NCBI GenBank assembly: GCA_029564595.1
Contig: JAKQPS010000020.1
Coordinates: 1-42,775 of the forward strand
DNA: 42,775 nt
Origin: a bacterium
GTDB lineage: Bacteria > UBP15 > UBA6099
Direction: 5' to 3'
Shown here: positions 2,964 to 40,806 of the stretch, piece after piece
Layout of the letters: the number at the start of each line of letters is the position of its first letter
How positions within the stretch are numbered: position 1 is the first letter of the stretch
Notes under the pieces: model-generated
Databases searched by the model: none
What the model was told of the DNA's origin: nothing
The model's input: the letters and a program-made list of their open reading frames with translations, nothing else
Translations under genes and position numbers: made by a program

Positions 2964-4112
2964 ATGAAAAAACTTACTTCAAGGGAAAGAGTCAGAAGGG
3001 CTGTTCGCGGGCACGATGTCGATATGATTCCTCTAATGTTGCAGATCGAGCCGCACACGATTCTAACGCTCGCCACCAAAGTTCGGCCTCCGAAGAACCC
3101 CGTAAAAGCCGCGGCATGGAAGGCGCTTGCGGATTTTTCAGCGAACTTCCCGAATAAGGATATAGGTCAATATATGACCCTGCTGTCTCTGAATTACGCA
3201 AAGGATTATTTCAGCGAACTCGGCGGAGATTTCTCCGATTATCTGTGGACTCCGATTCCGCTTTGGTTCCGGGGAGCAGGATTCAAAGAAGATAAGCTCT
3301 TCATAAAGGATATGTACGGCGAGAAGCACTTTATCGGCGGGCAATATCTCGAAATGGGAGAATTGCCATGCCCGGATAAAGACACACTCGCGGCGTACCA
3401 GTTTCCCGATGTGTCCCATCCCGTAAATTTCTCCCATGTGAGAATCGCGCGGCGCGCGAACCCGGACGCGTTCATGCTCGGCTGCGCTCCCGGAGTTCAG
3501 GACTGGGGGCAGCGGTTTCACCCGATGCAGTCGATATACACGGGGATGATAGAGTACCCTGAAATCATAAAGGGCTTCTTCGAGAAACTGTGCGACCATT
3601 CGCTCGTCATAATACGGGGGATGCTCGAAGCCGGGTGCGACGCCATTTGCGTGCAGGACGATTACGGCACGCAGCAGAGCATGCTGATAAGCAAAAAGAT
3701 GTGGACGGAGTTCACGTATCCGATGATAAAGAGGCAGATAGAGGAGATACACGCCTGCGGCGGGATCGCGATGCTGCACTCGTGCGGAGTGGTGGCTCCG
3801 CTGCTGGACAAGCTCGCGGACGCCGGCCTTGATGTGCTGCATCCGTTCCAGCCTCTGCCGGGGAACGATTTGGCGGCGGCGAAAAAGGAATACGGAAACC
3901 GATTGTGTTTCGCGACGGGCATGTGCGTGCAGAGAATCGGACAACTATCCCCGGAGGACGCTTATAAAGACATAGTCGGCGCGGCGAAGGTCGCGGCGGA
4001 GGGCGGACGGTTCATACTCGCGCACACCAACGGTCTGCAGAACGACACCCCGATAGAGAACCTTAAGGCGATGTTTGAGGCGATAGACGACGTGAGGGCA
4101 TTCAGATTCTAG
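2964..4112 (+). CDS. Uroporphyrinogen decarboxylase-family protein (MtaA/CmuA-like methyltransferase)
   Basis: A 382-residue soluble protein of the UroD/MtaA superfamily. It begins with the typical SRERVRRAVRGHDVDMIPL and has the TIM-barrel zinc motif HSCG (His272, Cys274). In MtaA/MtbA enzymes a third Cys near the C-terminus completes the zinc site; here the matching stretch is ILAHTNGLQNDTP, without Cys but with His and Asn, as in several uncharacterised subfamilies. It is more likely a corrinoid- or C1-linked methyltransferase than the haem-pathway HemE, since no haem genes are nearby. The substrate is unknown. A GGGGGAG stretch before the ATG serves as ribosome site; it may be cotranscribed with the GDPD gene. 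Confidence 0.8.
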   Translation: MKKLTSRERVRRAVRGHDVDMIPLMLQIEPHTILTLATKVRPPKNPVKAAAWKALADFSANFPNKDIGQYMTLLSLNYAKDYFSELGGDFSDYLWTPIPLWFRGAGFKEDKLFIKDMYGEKHFIGGQYLEMGELPCPDKDTLAAYQFPDVSHPVNFSHVRIARRANPDAFMLGCAPGVQDWGQRFHPMQSIYTGMIEYPEIIKGFFEKLCDHSLVIIRGMLEAGCDAICVQDDYGTQQSMLISKKMWTEFTYPMIKRQIEEIHACGGIAMLHSCGVVAPLLDKLADAGLDVLHPFQPLPGNDLAAAKKEYGNRLCFATGMCVQRIGQLSPEDAYKDIVGAAKVAAEGGRFILAHTNGLQNDTPIENLKAMFEAIDDVRAFRF

Positions 4113-25545: not shown

Positions 25546-26664
25546 ATGGCCGCGAACGGCAATTCGGCGTCGATGAGACCCCGCGAAATTTATAACGAAA
25601 TGAAGAAAGACATTATCGGACAGGACCTTGTCCTCAAATATGTGTCTGTCGCCATATTCAAACATGTATGCGGCGAGAAGTACGGCAACATCATAATGAT
25701 CGGAAACAGCGGAACCGGAAAAACCTCGGTCATGAAGGCGATGGAAAAGCTGTATATGAAGAATCCGTTCTTCGCCAAGCACAGAGTAGTAGTGAGGATG
25801 AACGCGAACTCGATGGCGAACGAAGAAGGAACCGTAATAACCGGACACCAGCTTTTCCGCACCCTTCAGGAGCGCGCTTTGCATATTCTCGGCAAGGAAT
25901 CCACCCCTGAAAAGGTTCAGGAATACATCGAGCACAGCACCGTCTGCATGGACGAAATCGACAAGATAACCGCCTATGTCGGCGGCAAACCCAACGTCGT
26001 CGGCATTAACATTCAGCAGTCGCTTCTCACTCTGATGGAAGGCGAAAGCGTGGTTTTCGACACGCACTTCCTGCAGGACGGCGAGTTCAAGCCCTACCAG
26101 ATGAACATCGACACGAGCAACATCCTTTTTATCTGCGGCGGCGCGTTCGAGGAGCTTTACAATCAGGTTTACGCTAGAGTCTTCGAAGAGGGAAAACAGG
26201 ACAAACTGACCAAAATGGTGATGGGAGAAGACGGCAAAGTCGAATTCAAACAGATTTTCACCCTGAAAGAGAACCTGATGCAGGAAGACATCTTCAAATA
26301 CGGAATGATGCCTCAGTTTCTTTCCCGTTTCGACAACTCAATCGTCCTCGAAGACCTTACCGCCGACGACCTCGAAACGATATTCACGGAGCCGGAAGAG
26401 TCCGTGTTCAATATTTCGCGGAGGTTCTTCAAGAGGTTCAACATCGAGCTGAACATAACGAAAAAGGCGCGCAGGCTGGTGGCGTCGGAGGCGGCAAAGA
26501 ACACACGCGTCGGCGCCCGCGCGCTTAAGGACACCTACGGACGCATCATTAAACAGTTCGAGTTCGATCCGTTCGAGCATGAATGCGTCAGAAAACTGGG
26601 CGATAACCAATACGAACTCACCATCGACGAAGGTATCGTCAAAGACGCGCTTGGAATCAAGTAG
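25546..26664 (+). CDS. ClpX-like AAA+ ATPase lacking the zinc-binding domain
   Basis: A 372-residue single-ring AAA+ protein of the ClpX/HslU type. It shows IIGQD (23-27), Walker A GNSGTGKT (53-60), Walker B CMDEID (134-139), the ClpX-like stretch NIQQSLLTLMEGE (155-167), sensor 1 in NILFICGGAF, an arginine finger at Arg261 (MPQFLSRFD) and sensor 2 GARAL (323-327). It lacks the four-Cys zinc domain that real ClpX uses for adaptors. The expected pore loop GYVG is not present after Walker A, and no IGF-type ClpP loop is evident. It is therefore probably a ClpP-independent remodelling ATPase of unknown target. It has its own promoter and a strong AAGGAGG site; no protease gene is adjacent. Confidence 0.85.
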   Translation: MAANGNSASMRPREIYNEMKKDIIGQDLVLKYVSVAIFKHVCGEKYGNIIMIGNSGTGKTSVMKAMEKLYMKNPFFAKHRVVVRMNANSMANEEGTVITGHQLFRTLQERALHILGKESTPEKVQEYIEHSTVCMDEIDKITAYVGGKPNVVGINIQQSLLTLMEGESVVFDTHFLQDGEFKPYQMNIDTSNILFICGGAFEELYNQVYARVFEEGKQDKLTKMVMGEDGKVEFKQIFTLKENLMQEDIFKYGMMPQFLSRFDNSIVLEDLTADDLETIFTEPEESVFNISRRFFKRFNIELNITKKARRLVASEAAKNTRVGARALKDTYGRIIKQFEFDPFEHECVRKLGDNQYELTIDEGIVKDALGIK

Positions 26665-27339
26665 TCAGATATTATTCTCTGAATAAATTTTGCGAAGACC
26701 CTCGATGAGGACGAATCTTCCGAGGGGGATAGTTTCGCGCGTGAACGCGGAGACGAAAGCCTTGTTGTCGCACAGGCCGCCGGAAAGGTACAGCCTGTCT
26801 GGCCTGCCTACAAGCGTCTCGCAGTTGAAGGCCACGCCGCGAAGGAAACCCGCTAGCGCTTCCTCGTGGCTTTTTCCCTGTGAAATCATGTCAAACATGG
26901 AAGTCATGCCAAGCACTCCGCAGACGACCGGGATGCGGGGCGCGTCCGAGGGCAAGTTCTCAGGCTCTATGTCGAAGTAGCGTGTCAGCAACTCTACGAC
27001 CTGCCCCGCGAAGGCTCCGCACTCAGTGTTCCAATCCATTCCCGCGACGCGACGGTTCCGTATCTGGACGTATTTGACGTCCCGCGCTCCGCAGTCAAGC
27101 ACCGTGAAGTCCGGCTCTTCTACCATTGCCAGAGCGCCTTCGGCGAGCGCCACAAGCTCGTTCACTCGCTCGCCGGAACCGGAGGCTATATTATGCCCGG
27201 TCGAAGCGGCTATTCTGTATTCCGACACGCTTTTGATGAAACGCCGCGAGGGAACAATCGCGCGGGTGGAATCTTCAAGATTGAAAATCTTAGCGTAACC
27301 CGTGCCGCAGTCGAGAAGGATAGGGGAAGGCGCGCTCAT
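26665..27339 (-). CDS. HgdC/BcrAD/BadFG-type ATPase (dehydratase/reductase activator-like)
   Basis: A 224-residue ASKHA-fold protein. It has the two phosphate loops LLDCGTGYAKI (10-14) and VLDCGARDVKYV (82-87) and the adenosine motif LSGGL. Cys107 (WNTECGAFAGQ) and Cys140 (VVCGVLGMTSM) fall where HgdC binds its inter-subunit [4Fe-4S] cluster. Such proteins use ATP to inject low-potential electrons into a partner such as 2-hydroxyacyl-CoA dehydratase or benzoyl-CoA reductase. It is shorter than HgdC. ATG 27339 is chosen: GGAGGGG lies upstream and it overlaps the upstream stop as ATGA. Confidence 0.8.
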   Translation of the reverse strand: MSAPSPILLDCGTGYAKIFNLEDSTRAIVPSRRFIKSVSEYRIAASTGHNIASGSGERVNELVALAEGALAMVEEPDFTVLDCGARDVKYVQIRNRRVAGMDWNTECGAFAGQVVELLTRYFDIEPENLPSDAPRIPVVCGVLGMTSMFDMISQGKSHEEALAGFLRGVAFNCETLVGRPDRLYLSGGLCDNKAFVSAFTRETIPLGRFVLIEGLRKIYSENNI

Positions 27340-28094
27340 CTTTTTCCCCTCCATCCGAGGTTGAATTCAAGAAACGCCTCTATCTTCGCGCGGGTCGAAT
27401 GAGACATCGCCTTGTCCACCTCGACGTACAGCCCGCCGTGTTCGCGCGCCAGATTGTACGCAAACGCGGATTTCTGGCAGAAAGACTGCGTGAAGAAAAC
27501 AGTCGGGACGCCCGAAGCGACCTCGCATTCCATTTCGATGTCGGCGGGAGTTTTGTTTTCCATGCAGCGGGTCCAGCCGAATATATGGGTTTCGTCAGGA
27601 AACAGTTCGAGGATGCCGAAGTCGTACGGGGGGACGCCCCAGAAGCCGCACTTAGGCGCGCATTCTTCAAGCGTCAGCCCATCAGGCAGCGGAGCGAAGA
27701 CAGAGTTGACGATAAGCTCCATCTTTTTCAACAGCGGCAGTCCGCTGCGCGAGATGGGAAACCCGGCTCCCTTCGCGTTGTCGTTTTCCACTTTCAGAAT
27801 CGGGATATCCGTCGTCCTTTCGAGCCAAGACGCGATGTTGCGCATCCCGTCGCATTTGCATTTGCCGACGGTGGCGATGACGAGGTCTAAGCCGCCGTCT
27901 TCGCGCAGAGAAAATATGTTTGAGACGACCCTTTTTAGAATCGAGCAGTACGCGTTGGGCAGATAGATGTCTTTTACGGGGCGATCCGCAAGAGGCTCGT
28001 CTAGGTCGAAAATGAGCGCGCCGTTCTCGATACGCTCTTGCATCATATCCCATGGCGGCGCGCCAACAATCCCTATCCGCTCTCGTTCTTCCAT
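27336..28094 (-). CDS. HgdB-like Fe-S protein (2-hydroxyacyl-CoA dehydratase D-like), reduced size
   Basis: A 252-residue protein with about nine Cys, including LPNAYCSILKR, VGKCKCDGMRN, EECAPKCGFWG, WTRCMENK and SFCQKSAFAY. The spacing of the first Cys, the CKCD motif followed by a helix, and the later TQSFCQKS resemble the cluster-binding half of HgdB/FldC-type subunits, but the protein is about 100 residues shorter and has no A-type partner nearby. It overlaps the HgdC-like ATPase by ATGA, so the two surely work together: the ATPase would reduce a cluster here. The reaction is unknown. The start has no ribosome site and lies seven bases after a -10 element. Confidence 0.6.
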   Translation of the reverse strand: MEERERIGIVGAPPWDMMQERIENGALIFDLDEPLADRPVKDIYLPNAYCSILKRVVSNIFSLREDGGLDLVIATVGKCKCDGMRNIASWLERTTDIPILKVENDNAKGAGFPISRSGLPLLKKMELIVNSVFAPLPDGLTLEECAPKCGFWGVPPYDFGILELFPDETHIFGWTRCMENKTPADIEMECEVASGVPTVFFTQSFCQKSAFAYNLAREHGGLYVEVDKAMSHSTRAKIEAFLEFNLGWRGKR

Positions 28095-28101
28095 GACAAT
28101 A

Positions 28102-28129
28102 AATATATATGAGGGGGACGGAAAATCAA
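28102..28129 (-). promoter_or_regulatory. Promoter of the HgdB-like/HgdC-like pair
   Basis: TTGATT (28124-28129), a 16-bp spacer and TATATT (28102-28107) on the minus strand. The start site would fall at about 28095, next to the ATG at 28094, so the transcript is probably leaderless. Confidence 0.5.
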
Positions 28130-35556: not shown

Positions 35557-35697
35557 AATTGCGACGGCCTTCAATTGATTGTCATAAAATGTCAAACTGA
35601 TAGTCGCATGAGTTGCGTTGTCACATCTTGCGCGTTGGTCTTTTGAGAAACTTAGATCGCAGCAATTAGTCATATTATCACAAGGTGCAAGTTGCTT

Positions 35698-37197
35698 ATG
35701 AAGATATTGTTTGTACATCTCGGGCGCGAAAATCTTGGAATCGAATATTTGTCATCTATCCTAAAGGAAGAAGGGCACGACGTGCATCTCGCAGTAGACA
35801 TAGGTCTTTTCGGCAAAAATGACAATATATTTTATGTTCCCACTATTGAGTCGATTTTTTCTATGTCCAGTTCTATTGTTGAAAAATACAAACGCATTAA
35901 ACCAGACATGGTCTGCTTTTCCGTTTATACCGGGACAATAAAATGGGCTTTACGGATGGCTGAGAGATTAAAACTGATTAAGGATGTTCCAGTAATAATG
36001 GGAGGGGTTCATGTGACACTTGCGCCTGAATCAGTCCTCCTATCGAATGCGGTGGACTTCGGCGTCCGGGGCGAAGGTGAAACGGTTATTGCTGAACTGG
36101 CTAAGAGTATTGAGAATAATCGCTCTCCTGAGCATCTAGCCGGAATCATATACAGAAATAAAGGAGAGATAAAGGTTAACGGATATGCTCCTCCTGTAAA
36201 GGATTTAGACGCTCTTCCGTTTCCAGACAAATCTTTATTCGAGCATTCCCTGAACATTGCAGACGATTATATGACGCTGCCCGCTCGCGGATGTCCTTAT
36301 TCTTGCACATATTGTTGCGAACAGCCGATCAGGGAAACGTATGGTGGAGAAAAGTATTGCCGCTTGAGAAGCGTGGACAACCTTCTTGAAGAACTTAAAA
36401 TTATGAAATCGCGCTATAAATATTCCGAAGTGTACTTTTGCAGTCCAATATTTCCATATCAAAAAGAATGGATAGAGGAATTCTCCCGGAAATATCCCAA
36501 AGAAATCGGAGTTCCTTTCTGGTGTTACGCGCATATCAAACACGCCGATGCAGAAATTGCTAGGCTTTTAGTGGATGCGGGCTGTTTCAAGGTGGAATTC
36601 GGGCTCCAGACCGTAAATGAAGACTTGAGGAGAAAAGTCTTCAACCGGAACGACACCAACGTGGATGTATCGAATGCTTTCAGCGCTTTTGAAAAAGAGG
36701 GGCTCCCGTACGATATCGGGCATATCGTTCATATTCCCGGTGAAACGGAAGACGATTACAGGCAAGCTGTGCGATTTTACAGCAGATTTGTATTGATCCA
36801 CAGGATAAAGGTTTTCACATTAACTTTATTCCCGGGCACAAGAATGCTTGAGTCTGCAATAGAAAATGGCTGGATAGACAAAGGTTTGCGAGAAAAAATA
36901 TACAATGGGGAATCAGGGGATTATTTTCACTCGCCATCTTTTTTCGAATCTTTGCCGGACTGGAAAATAGCCGCCTACAGTCGCCTTATCAGTCTTACGC
37001 CGATTTTGCCGCGTGGATGGGCTCCAGTGTTCCTTTCACCGCGCCTCCTGCGTCTGACGAGCTTAGCGCCCAAGTTTTTAATACGCTTAGCAGAGATGCT
37101 TTATCTCATCGGCATAAAAGATTTAAGAATGAGGTTATATCTCAAGCTTTATTTACGCCACATTGCTCAATTAATCACCCGTAAGAGAAAGGCTTGA
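35698..37197 (+). CDS. B12-binding radical SAM protein (first of three)
   Basis: A 499-residue protein. Residues 1-140 are a cobalamin-binding Rossmann domain (FVHLGRENLGIEYLSSILK, VIMGGVHVTLAPESVL, FGVRGEGETVIAELA). The radical SAM core follows with CPYSCTYC (Cys199, Cys203, Cys206) binding the [4Fe-4S] cluster, LQTVNEDLRRKVFNR and GHIVHIPGETEDDY. The C-terminal 110 residues are basic and partly hydrophobic. This class methylates or rearranges unreactive carbons; members near flippases often act on lipids. Start ATG 35698 with AAGGTG upstream; TTG 35692 is an alternative. DNA here is AT-rich compared with the left 35 kb. Confidence 0.88.
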   Translation: MKILFVHLGRENLGIEYLSSILKEEGHDVHLAVDIGLFGKNDNIFYVPTIESIFSMSSSIVEKYKRIKPDMVCFSVYTGTIKWALRMAERLKLIKDVPVIMGGVHVTLAPESVLLSNAVDFGVRGEGETVIAELAKSIENNRSPEHLAGIIYRNKGEIKVNGYAPPVKDLDALPFPDKSLFEHSLNIADDYMTLPARGCPYSCTYCCEQPIRETYGGEKYCRLRSVDNLLEELKIMKSRYKYSEVYFCSPIFPYQKEWIEEFSRKYPKEIGVPFWCYAHIKHADAEIARLLVDAGCFKVEFGLQTVNEDLRRKVFNRNDTNVDVSNAFSAFEKEGLPYDIGHIVHIPGETEDDYRQAVRFYSRFVLIHRIKVFTLTLFPGTRMLESAIENGWIDKGLREKIYNGESGDYFHSPSFFESLPDWKIAAYSRLISLTPILPRGWAPVFLSPRLLRLTSLAPKFLIRLAEMLYLIGIKDLRMRLYLKLYLRHIAQLITRKRKA

Positions 37198-37544
37198 AGA
37201 AATGCTGGTTTTATCCTGTCGCAGACCGATGACAATCAAACTTGAAGGAAGAAGCCGCAATGCCTTCATATCCAGAAAGCAATATAACAACTCAATCGCA
37301 GCGAGCGCCCACATTTGAAAATTCTTTTGCATGGAGTGCGCTGTTTATTGTTGCTTCAAAATGAATTGGAGAAAATTAACATTCTAAAAGCGAAAATGTT
37401 GCTAGTGTTCAAGAATTAAGAAAAGCTTCTTTTGTGGACGATTTTTTATCAGAATCAAGCTTGAACAGCATTGTTTTTGTAAAGAATATCTTTTTATTGA
37501 ATACTGGGCTTAATATCTTAGAAAGTGAAAAATAGTAAGATAAA
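37198..37544. other. Gap with probable gene remnants
   Basis: Two stretches look like decayed coding DNA. One is a 34-codon frame at 37260-37364 with GGAAGAAG before its ATG. The other is a stop-free run of 51 codons at 37380-37535 without a start codon, encoding a plausible globular sequence (ELRKASFVDDFLSESSLNS). They lie in different frames and may be pieces of one broken gene. I recognise no family. Confidence 0.3.
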
Positions 37545-38945
37545 ATGAAAGTATATCCCACAATACTCCTAATTAATCCTCGGGCAACATACTACCGTGA
37601 AATAGCTCAGAAGTGTTATCCTCCACTGAACCTCCTATATTTAGCCGCCAGTCTAAGACAAGCCGGCATGAACGCAATCGTGATCGACGCCAATGCCATG
37701 CGTCTGAGCGACTCGGAGATCAGGAGTAGAATAAACGAAGTCGGTGACGTGTCCATCGTGGGATTCCCTCTTCATTCGGAGATGATGAGTGAAGTAAGGG
37801 CGTTGACGGAGATTGCGCGTTCAGCGCTGCCTAAAGCGACTATTGTGCTGGGCGGTCCTCATGCCACCGCTTTGCCTGACGATACATTGAACGAATACCC
37901 AGATGTGGATTTCATACTGCGAGGAGAATGCGAGGATGTTTTTCCGGCCTTTGCGCGCGTCTGTGCTGAAGGGGGCGACTATAGTTCCTTGCATGGCGTT
38001 TCGTACAGAGAAGGAGTAGAGACGCGTCATTGTCCAACCCCTCAGCCACCCGATATCTCAAGAATACCTTTTCCGGCAAGAGACCTTCTAGATCAAGCTT
38101 ATCGCGAGGGCAGATACTACAGTTTGATGATAAGAACGCGACCCGTGGAAACGATGTTGACAAGCCGCGGCTGCCCATTTAGATGCTCATTTTGTTACAA
38201 CACTAAAAGAACCTATCGATTTCGCGCCGCTGATGATGTTTTCAATGAGCTGGTTGGCATTCATGAGAGGGGAATAGATACAGTAGAGATTGTCGACGAC
38301 AATTTTTCAGTTGATAGGAGCAGGTCTCTTGAGTTATTCGGCTTGCTAAAAAAGGAAAAACTCCGCATGCGTTTCAGAATAAAGTGCCGAGTGGACAGCG
38401 TGGACGAGGAGTTCCTACTCCGCGCTCGCGACGCCGGAGTTTATCAAGTCTCCTACGGAATGGAGTCAGGCGTGCAGGAATTGCTGGACGCCATGAGAAA
38501 AGGGACTACGGTGGAACAGAACGCAAAAGCATGCGCCATGACCAAAGCGGCTGGAATGGCATGCCACACATCATGGATTGTTGGATTCCCCGGAGACACC
38601 CCTGAGCGCATATGGCAAACCGTTGGTTTTATTCGCTCTATCGCGCCCACAACGGTCAATATTGAATTTCTTAAACCATATCCATTTACCGAGGTATATA
38701 TGCAGGCAAAGGAGAAGGGCATGCTGGTCAACGACTGGACATCTCGCTCGGAAGCAATTCCGTGGGTCAAACTCCAGTGGATGAAGGACAAATGCGATGT
38801 GGAACATCTATTGCGACGGATTTATAGAAGCATTTATCTTAGGCCAAGATATATTTGGCAATTCGGAAGTTTAGCATTGCTCGAAGGCAATATGTTGATC
38901 GCTAGATATGCTCTTCAGCAATTTGCTAAGACTATTCGTAATTAG
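37545..38945 (+). CDS. B12-binding radical SAM protein (second of three)
   Basis: A 466-residue protein. The N-terminal cobalamin domain has the typical KCYPPLNLLYLAASLRQAG, VLGGPHATALPDDTL and FILRGECEDVFPAFA. The radical SAM core has CPFRCSFC (Cys210, Cys214, Cys217), VEIVDDNFSVDR and YGMESGVQELLDAMRKGTT, close to the BchE/HpnJ-like group. The C-terminal 80 residues contain YRSIYLRPRYIWQF, a motif frequent in these enzymes. The substrate is unknown. No strong ribosome site precedes the ATG. Confidence 0.9.
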   Translation: MKVYPTILLINPRATYYREIAQKCYPPLNLLYLAASLRQAGMNAIVIDANAMRLSDSEIRSRINEVGDVSIVGFPLHSEMMSEVRALTEIARSALPKATIVLGGPHATALPDDTLNEYPDVDFILRGECEDVFPAFARVCAEGGDYSSLHGVSYREGVETRHCPTPQPPDISRIPFPARDLLDQAYREGRYYSLMIRTRPVETMLTSRGCPFRCSFCYNTKRTYRFRAADDVFNELVGIHERGIDTVEIVDDNFSVDRSRSLELFGLLKKEKLRMRFRIKCRVDSVDEEFLLRARDAGVYQVSYGMESGVQELLDAMRKGTTVEQNAKACAMTKAAGMACHTSWIVGFPGDTPERIWQTVGFIRSIAPTTVNIEFLKPYPFTEVYMQAKEKGMLVNDWTSRSEAIPWVKLQWMKDKCDVEHLLRRIYRSIYLRPRYIWQFGSLALLEGNMLIARYALQQFAKTIRN

Positions 38946-39285
38946 TCGATAATGTCATGCAACTTCATAATGGCACAATGAATCGCCGCATAACGCCATA
39001 TCGGCCACATTTTGAGCGATTATGAATACTGAGTTTTTCTCTTTTGCCATTTATCAAGACAAAAGAATTTGGAATGGTTTTCCCCTTCGTGTTCGGTATA
39101 AATATCGAACCTGAATCCTTTATTTGGGATTCGGGAGCGATTGTTTAGAGCGCCTTACTGAATATTCCGAATTATCATGGCTTGAACAATACCTCCAAAC
39201 AACGATTATGTTGGAAACTGATGAATGAGTTTATTGATGCTCTGCCCAGAACTATTCATCGAATCTTTTGACGCTAACGTTCGAC
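38946..39285. other. Intergenic region between convergent radical SAM genes
   Basis: Holds hairpin repeat copy B2 (39111-39152). Otherwise no gene or clear terminator is seen. Confidence 0.5.
39111..39152 (-). repeat. Dispersed hairpin repeat, copy B2
   Basis: Reverse complement of the repeat at 110-150: bases 39127-39152 differ from 110-135 at one position. GAATCC (39113-39118) and GGATTC (39127-39132) form the stem around an 8-nt loop whose sequence differs from copy B1. Confidence 0.6.
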
Positions 39286-40806
39286 TCATTTGTAATATCC
39301 GGCGTCCTGATTGCGCTCTGTAATATGTTTTTTGCGAATACGATAAGAGTTTTCGTTGAAGACTGTGAATTGCTTGCTTTTTCCTATCCAGTCTTCAGAA
39401 GCTTTTTCTTGACCGAATAACATATCTAGCAGCGCCATGAACTTTCTCTTGAATTCGGTGAATGATGCCACAGATTTTATTGCCTTCCAAAGGTATTTCG
39501 GGCGCATATAGAATTTTAAATATGCCCATTTTGTCAACCTGTCGATCTCTATATTTGATATTTCCGTCCATGGGCGAGGAAGCTGTTTTTCCTGCTGTCT
39601 TCCTAGAATATATTCTTTCCAGTAATCCTCTCCTGTGCTTTGAATGAGGTCGTTCCACATGAGTGTCCAAGGTTTTGCTGTAAGTTTTGAGAATTGAGCG
39701 TAGCTCAGGTTCAAAAGCATCGCGAAATTCACGGTGTCTCTGAACGATTGTATTGTTTCTCCCGGCACGCCGACAAGGAAAAATCCGAGCGTTTTGATGC
39801 CGATTTCATTAGTTTTGCCTATTGTGTCTTTTATCTGTCCAATTGAAATATCTTTGTTCATAATTGACAGGGTTTGCTGATCTCCAGATTCGATTCCGTA
39901 ATAGATTCTGCGGCAACCGGCCCGGTGCATTATTTCAAGCAGATCCTCATTGACTGAATCTATTCTAGCCCGGCATGCCCATGTAATATCCAAATTTCTG
40001 TTTATTATTCCTTCACATATATTTTTCACTCTTTCATTCGAAATACAGAACTCGTAATCGAAAATGTCTATCTCTCTTATCGAATACTTGTAATAGCACT
40101 CTTCAATTTCATTAACTACCGTTTCAGGTTTTCTAGCGGCATACTTCGTGCCGCGAGCCTCGCAGAATGAGCATTGCTTAGGGCAGCCCAAACTCGTTAC
40201 CATCACGGTAAAATTCTTCCGCTCTGTCGGAAATTCGGCATACAATTCGTTAGGAAGAAGTTCCCTAGCAGGGTTGGGATAAGCATCGAAATCCTCTTCA
40301 TTGGGATGTGGTGGATTGACAACTATATCATGACCTTTTTTGTAAATCAGTCCCGGCACAATATCAAAATCGCGATTCCCTTCCAGTTGCGCAAGGAAAT
40401 CAGGGATCATTCTAATTGCTTGATAATAACATCCATAATCAACCACATCGTTCATTAACGACTCGCGTGGATATACCCGCAGATTGTATCCCCCCGCTAA
40501 CACAGGGATTTTTAGGTTGTTTTTTAATACACGGGCCCAGTCCAGCGTTTCCCTGAACATATATGTCGTCATCATAAAGCCGAGGATGTCAGGCTGAAAG
40601 TCCTTGAGTATTTCGAGCGTTTGTTCCTTTGAAAGCCCAATAGTTCTAGCATCCACAAGTATGACTTCATGCCCAGCCTGTTTTGCGATCGCAGCCACCC
40701 ACGCCAAGCTGAGAGGAGGAAATAGTCCGAAGTATTTCTGTACGATTCGGATATTTTCTTCATGAAGTTTATAGCTGAATGGATTGAATATCAGAGCAAC
40801 TCGCAT
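39286..40806 (-). CDS. B12-binding radical SAM protein (third of three)
   Basis: A 506-residue protein. The cobalamin domain shows FPPLSLAWVAAIAKQAGHEVILVDARTI-type order, then VLAGGYNLRVYPRESL. The radical SAM core has CPKQCSFC (Cys208, Cys212, Cys215), EIDIFDYEFCIS and YGIESGDQQTLSIMNKDIS. The tail has the YLKFYMRPKYLWKAIKS motif like the second protein. It is clearly a paralogue rather than a copy of its neighbours. AAAGGA lies 12 bases before the ATG. It is on the minus strand, convergent with the second radical SAM gene and downstream of the flippase gene. Confidence 0.9.
   Translation of the reverse strand: MRVALIFNPFSYKLHEENIRIVQKYFGLFPPLSLAWVAAIAKQAGHEVILVDARTIGLSKEQTLEILKDFQPDILGFMMTTYMFRETLDWARVLKNNLKIPVLAGGYNLRVYPRESLMNDVVDYGCYYQAIRMIPDFLAQLEGNRDFDIVPGLIYKKGHDIVVNPPHPNEEDFDAYPNPARELLPNELYAEFPTERKNFTVMVTSLGCPKQCSFCEARGTKYAARKPETVVNEIEECYYKYSIREIDIFDYEFCISNERVKNICEGIINRNLDITWACRARIDSVNEDLLEIMHRAGCRRIYYGIESGDQQTLSIMNKDISIGQIKDTIGKTNEIGIKTLGFFLVGVPGETIQSFRDTVNFAMLLNLSYAQFSKLTAKPWTLMWNDLIQSTGEDYWKEYILGRQQEKQLPRPWTEISNIEIDRLTKWAYLKFYMRPKYLWKAIKSVASFTEFKRKFMALLDMLFGQEKASEDWIGKSKQFTVFNENSYRIRKKHITERNQDAGYYK

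Follow-up and report, generated by a model that had tools for sequence, protein, structure and literature searches.

A compact HgdB/HgdC-type gene pair predicted to form a two-component ATP-driven Fe-S reductase, with preQ0 as a candidate substrate

In the window, by which we mean the whole 42,775-nucleotide stretch of bacterial DNA analysed here, two adjacent genes encode a compact protein of the HgdB/BCR/DCCP type (protein B) and an activase ATPase of the BadF/BcrAD/HgdC type (protein C). We consider it likely that the two constitute a two-component, ATP-driven Fe-S reductase with a non-CoA substrate. More specifically, we propose, at a probability of about 0.37, that B-C reduces preQ0 (7-cyano-7-deazaguanine) and takes the place of QueF. 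Several anaerobic lineages might then possess a second, nitrogenase-like ATP-driven route from preQ0 to preQ1, in which a compact protein of the BCR/DCCP type works with an activase dedicated to it; we offer this as a tentative proposal. Were the substrate indeed preQ0, B-C would be the second biological nitrile-to-amine reductase, QueF being to our knowledge the only dedicated one, and would fill the missing queuosine step in anaerobes without QueF. It would also provide a DCCP-like system, whose role has been described as unknown (PMC11971306), with a physiological function. Whatever the substrate, the pair would represent a small, conserved and minimal two-gene machinery for ATP-driven electron injection. 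Its presence in cultured Desulfobulbus strains makes it testable. Among the papers listed by literature searches, we found no account of the B-C pair and no alternative preQ0 reductase.

The gene pair and its setting

The genes of B and C (Table 1) overlap by ATGA, which would allow their translation to be coupled. The overlap and the protein sizes given in an earlier reading of the sequence alone (hereafter the sequence-only reading) are borne out; C is 224 aa long when read from the ATG within the overlap and 229 aa from an in-frame ATG upstream. That B-C is more than a chance arrangement follows from dN/dS values of 0.05-0.15 for both genes between congeneric genomes, together with the recurrence of the pair in at least four phyla: strong purifying selection acts on what is a real gene pair. 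The sequence-only reading had also credited it with a promoter of its own, a claim that has lost its footing. The sole consensus match 5' of B is a sigma-70-like site (28129-28102; 9/12) that stops 7 bp short of the start codon, and a promoter scan of the region returned 3 sites against 1.0 +/- 1.0 in shuffles, a site of such quality being expected by chance. Moreover, B is preceded on its own strand by an FtsX/MacB-like gene whose end lies 51 bp away, and read-through into B-C is therefore equally possible.

Convergent with C lies a forward-strand gene (25546-26664) for a ClpX-like AAA+ ATPase of 372 aa, which scores far under the ClpX equivalog cut-off. Elsewhere in the window, three ORFs of 466-506 aa (35692-40806) resemble B12-binding radical SAM proteins, with CxxxCxxC-type motifs in their translations, and a forward-strand gene (2964-4112) encodes a UroD/MtaA-like corrinoid methyltransferase homologue, whose matches to NF004889 and TIGR01463 are below cut-off.

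Table 1. Features of the B-C locus, in window positions
Feature	Positions	Strand	Description	Basis
Protein B gene	27336..28094	-	252 aa, 8 Cys; compact two-domain HgdB/BCR/DCCP-type subunit	ORF, fold
Protein C gene	26665..27339	-	224 aa; predicted BadF/BcrAD/HgdC-type activase ATPase	Pfam, phmmer, model
ATGA overlap	27336..27339	-	B stop / C start	sequence
B Cys50	27945..27947	-	putative cluster ligand at the HgdB 'CSxxR' position	invariant in 80; hhalign-aligned with an HGD-D cysteine
B Cys81	27852..27854	-	putative cluster ligand at the HgdB 'CDxxR' position	invariant in 80; hhalign-aligned with HGD-D 'CD'
B Cys177	27564..27566	-	in GWTRCxENxTP; possible fourth cluster ligand or thioimide-forming nucleophile	invariant in 80
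B Cys206	27477..27479	-	putative cluster ligand at the HgdB 'KFC' position near the C-terminus	invariant in 80
C Cys107	27019..27021	-	predicted first Cys of helix-cluster-helix; first residue of model helix 107-121	invariant in 37
C Cys140	26920..26922	-	predicted second Cys of helix-cluster-helix; directly before model helix 141-153	invariant in 37

Family, fold and cluster ligands

C is predicted to be an activase ATPase of the BadF/HgdC type. It matches the Pfam family BcrAD_BadFG (PF01869) above cut-off (E 2.4e-8; 34.3 bits against a gathering score of 31.5), a divergent relative falling slightly under that score at 29.7 bits, and TIGR00241 (CoA_E_activ) with an E of 8.9e-13, below the family cut-off. 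No RACo-type domain (PF14574, PF17651) is found in C, which among these Pfam families matches BcrAD_BadFG only. Sequence and fold searches agree on its nearest relative: DCCP-R (PDB 7yyl) is both the best phmmer hit (E 9e-10) and the best fold match (TM 0.80, E 3.8e-15) of a model with pLDDT 89.6. The two cluster cysteines recognized in C by the sequence-only reading proved invariant among the relatives compared, and their location at helix starts presumably reproduces the helix-cluster-helix arrangement of HgdC.

No Pfam family is matched above cut-off by B, for which HGD-D (PF06050) appears as a sub-threshold match over residues 43-98 (E 5.6e-4; 20.0 bits against a gathering score of 28.4). 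Of 53 relatives of B, 5 match HGD-D at E<=0.01, and no other Pfam family was found across them; a phmmer search of B against PDB sequences gave no significant match. In a profile comparison with the full-size paralogues (hhalign), residues 38-101 alone align, with a probability of 44%; the argument for kinship is carried by the fold comparison. The AlphaFold2 model of B (pLDDT 89, pTM 0.86) comprises two four-strand alpha/beta domains connected by a short linker that contains a single helix of ten residues. At E<=0.001, Foldseek matches this model, with probability 1.00 and a TM of 0.52-0.59 by query length, only to 3-methylbenzoyl-CoA reductase (MbdON, 9g87), DCCP (6eno), BzdNO (8s02) and 2-hydroxyisocaproyl-CoA dehydratase (HadA, 3o3o), and to no other fold. 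At the level of predicted structure, this confirms the kinship of B with the BCR/DCCP/HAD subunits; the assignment of the two proteins to an HgdB/HgdC-type pair in the sequence-only reading is thus upheld, the second protein folding like the HgdB family.

In BzdNO, a three-helix intermediate domain contributes, together with the N-terminal helix, to the CoA channel (PMC11971306). This helical domain is absent from the model of B, which has the single ten-residue linker helix against three helices in BzdNO; we therefore argue that B probably acts on a small molecule other than a CoA compound.

Exactly four cysteines (C50, C81, C177 and C206) are among the 36 positions invariant in 80 B sequences, a set that includes seven divergent members from a profile search without a fixed motif; Cys177 is retained in these seven too, found without GWTRCxENxTP as a search word. 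By eye, Cys206 shares its local context with the FC motif of the full-size paralogues. Two extra cysteines of the Cys-rich full-size paralogues of this phylum (in the N-terminal TCSYxP and in PHC) have no counterpart in B. The [8Fe-9S] double cubane of DCCP is bound by six cysteine ligands (PMC11971306); since six are needed and four are invariant, such a cluster is unlikely in B. A single [4Fe-4S] site would instead be expected, for which C177 may serve as the fourth ligand or act as a nucleophile.

The sequence-only reading had contrasted the pair with known systems as having an A-type partner and acyl-CoA genes. This no longer stands, as DCCP/DCCP-R (6eno, 7yyl) is a two-component precedent: it too joins one HgdB-type protein to a dedicated activase, without need of an A-type partner, with C nearest to DCCP-R by both sequence and fold and B matching DCCP by fold. 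Hence, B-C should be compared with DCCP/DCCP-R and not with HgdAB alone. Nevertheless, the chain of 6eno exceeds B by about 170 residues and has a helical middle domain of which B is devoid. With the class I BCRs (BzdNO, MbdON) and the 2-hydroxyacyl-CoA dehydratases (HadBC, HgdAB), B shares the alpha/beta-domain fold, three putative cluster cysteines and an ATP-driven activase of the same family; in contrast to B, which stands alone and without a helical domain, those enzymes have two catalytic subunits and handle CoA substrates via that domain.

Distribution, neighbourhoods and the queuosine genes

A scan of a genome collection yielded 131 relatives, of which 80 were kept. They come mostly from Desulfobulbales, with others from candidate division B38, Oligoflexia and Bdellovibrionales MAGs; Desulfobulbus elongatus, D. 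rhabdoformis and D. alkaliphilus are among the cultured strains that carry B. The phylum of the window genome is represented by seven genomes, six with B and the seventh 67% complete. By profile search, B was detected in 28/395 Desulfobacterota, 3/297 members of the B38 phylum and 4/291 Bdellovibrionota. Each of the genomes in which it was so detected has one copy, split over two contigs in one case. Its identity to the window protein is 43-95% within set A3. C lies directly 3' of B in 78 of the 80 loci, the remaining two contigs stopping 89 and 140 bp past B, and directly after it in every further locus with a complete B; their pairing is obligate. No relatives of B-C were encountered in the viral contigs, phages and plasmids searched. 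Nor did any locus examined place a full-size dehydratase or an acyl-CoA gene set next to the pair; the description of it as minimal in the sequence-only reading is supported.

The neighbourhoods differ by clade. In the Desulfobulbales, lptFG lies upstream of B-C, and a RACo-like gene occurs nearby in 33 loci; each of these is of Desulfobulbales type and has the gene on the strand opposite to B-C. Its product (e.g., L032:3182-4756, reverse strand) has the linker, middle and C-terminal RACo domains and no match to the ferredoxin domain. In 13 loci of this type, a DUF362 gene follows B-C directly on the same strand (e.g., L045:2802-3623). None of these neighbours (lptFG, RACo-like, DUF362) is present in the 12 loci of other clades. 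In another deltaproteobacterial clade, B-C is followed by lysS, and in a further clade by an MBL-fold gene. In the B38 clade (L164, L173), the gene order is B12-binding radical SAM, DUF72, queE, queC, B, C, argS; the QueC of this operon scores above the TIGR00364 cut-off, and queC and B overlap in L173. In the tree of B, the B38 proteins are sister to those of the window with a support of 98/97. A Desulfobulbales-like genome has queD-queE ~3 kb downstream of B-C with two opposite-strand genes between, which, taken alone, could be due to chance.

The proposal that B-C acts on preQ0 draws, among other things, on this B38 operon, in which the pair follows queE-queC, and on the mutual exclusion of B-C and QueF in the genomes tested. 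QueF is absent above cut-off from all 41 B-C-positive genomes and present at >=60 bits in 19 of 39 B-C-negative Desulfobacterota (Fisher p 6e-8, relatedness ignored). Three B-C-positive genomes show weak QueF matches (23-26 bits, below cut-off), which we take to resemble FolE-type T-fold proteins. QueC is present in 35 of the 41, and the genomes without a QueC match have close relatives with one; when only QueC-positive genomes are counted, QueF occurs in 0/35 with B-C as against 14/28 without it (Fisher p 1e-6, relatedness again ignored). As the genomes with B-C represent only about six clades, the effective sample is small and the evidence much weaker than the p-values imply. QueH was found above cut-off in 37/41 B-C-positive genomes, 39 of them shared with the 41 sampled for QueF and QueC, and in 32/39 negatives. 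Of the three steps tested, only that from preQ0 to preQ1 is without its known enzyme in the B-C genomes.

The absence of QueF is itself unspecific, since the other 14 of the 28 QueC-positive, B-C-negative Desulfobacterota lack it too (G017, G020, G021, G022, G024, G025, G031, G037, G038, G043, G047, G049, G057 and G058); another route or salvage must therefore operate in them. QueH is mostly present in these 14. In genomes devoid of both QueF and B-C, a search beside queC for an alternative QueF came upon neither B-like nor C-like genes, and no recurrent candidate was noticed. QueC was not found in the window genome (97% complete) nor in one congener, and a second congener, G006, has both QueC and QueE; the two genomes without it could salvage preQ0, or the gene could lie in an assembly gap. 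No preQ1 riboswitch was detected near 20 B-C loci or in the window region. In the class of B38, QueF is absent from 4/4 genomes, which leaves no before-and-after comparison of the operon to be made.

Proposed chemistry and competing explanations

In the mechanism that we envisage, C would dimerize around one [4Fe-4S] cluster, and its binding and hydrolysis of ATP would drive single low-potential electrons onto the Fe-S cluster of B, held by Cys50, Cys81, Cys206 and perhaps Cys177. B-C would then carry out a four-electron reduction of the preQ0 nitrile, yielding the aminomethyl group of preQ1 and allowing the queuosine pathway to continue without NADPH-dependent QueF. The type of cluster, the transfer of electrons, the oligomeric state, the substrate and the chemistry are all inferred here. 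QueF would be equivalent to B-C in reaction and pathway position, while belonging to an unrelated family and drawing on NADPH where B-C would use ATP and low-potential electrons. DCCP is known to act on small molecules, reducing acetylene, azide and hydrazine among others (PMC11971306). Against preQ0 as the substrate, B-C is not clustered with que genes outside B38, its neighbours there being lptFG, lysS, FtsX or the MBL gene, and there is no obvious economy in using ATP for a step that can run on NADPH. Further, we know of no role in preQ1 synthesis for the argS, DUF72 and radical SAM genes of the B38 operon. Some of the fit to preQ0 is also a matter of selection, several candidate functions having been considered first.

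Most of the same evidence could be accommodated if B-C were a DCCP-like reductase, driven by ATP but directed at a different conserved small molecule, for instance the precursor of a cofactor, a different nucleobase or tRNA modification, or a small inorganic compound, with the absence of QueF a coincidence of lineage. We regard this as a real possibility, if one short of even odds. The fold and the pairing speak for it equally, the conservation of B throughout implies one substrate, and both the variation of neighbours by clade and the 14 QueC-positive genomes without QueF or B-C also count in its favour. What it leaves to chance is the complete exclusion of QueF in 41 genomes and the placement of B-C behind queE-queC in precisely the clade nearest to the window's proteins. 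That same operon could be invoked for B-C as an epoxyqueuosine reductase replacing QueG/QueH; this we find hardly credible, the idea being largely refuted by a frequency of QueH in B-C genomes similar to that in the negatives.

B might alternatively be a sulfur- or selenium-handling protein akin to TudS (DUF523), the [4Fe-5S]-type 4-thiouridine-5'-monophosphate desulfidase, with C providing reducing power. TudS belongs to the same superfamily, is likewise reduced and has a nucleobase substrate (PMC11971306), and MGC clusters often contain dicubane proteins that have been provisionally tied to selenium (PMC10418091). This is nevertheless improbable: TudS has one domain and is described as transferring sulfur and not as generating radicals, whereas B is a two-domain protein with an ATPase as its obligate partner, and selenium or sulfur genes were not identified among the annotated neighbours.

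We likewise see little prospect for the suggestion of the sequence-only reading that the pair injects electrons to reactivate another enzyme, possibly corrinoid proteins; the target could for example be a corrinoid methyltransferase protein or a different metalloenzyme. The UroD/MtaA-like gene of the window, about 23 kb away, and the RACo-like gene near B-C would be in keeping with such a role. However, the latter is confined to Desulfobulbales-type loci and the opposite strand (0/12 loci elsewhere), and no corrinoid activation gene was seen adjoining B-C in the other clades. In addition, the known corrinoid activators are RACo/Ram proteins, which have a different architecture.

By kinship, B-C could also be what remains, possibly in decay, of a benzoyl-CoA reductase or 2-hydroxyacyl-CoA dehydratase, with a CoA thioester as its substrate. 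This appears very improbable, given the strength of purifying selection, the 36 invariant positions, the want of a second catalytic subunit or acyl-CoA gene set in the loci examined, and the missing helical CoA-binding domain of B. The window genome does encode a separate conventional dehydratase/DCCP-type system on another contig (G000 contig C38:3007-6057): two HGD-D subunits of full size, next to which lies a BadF-type activase of their own (L001-L003). B-C was considered as a partner of this dehydratase and rejected: with two full-size subunits and an activase of its own, that enzyme need not be served by B-C.
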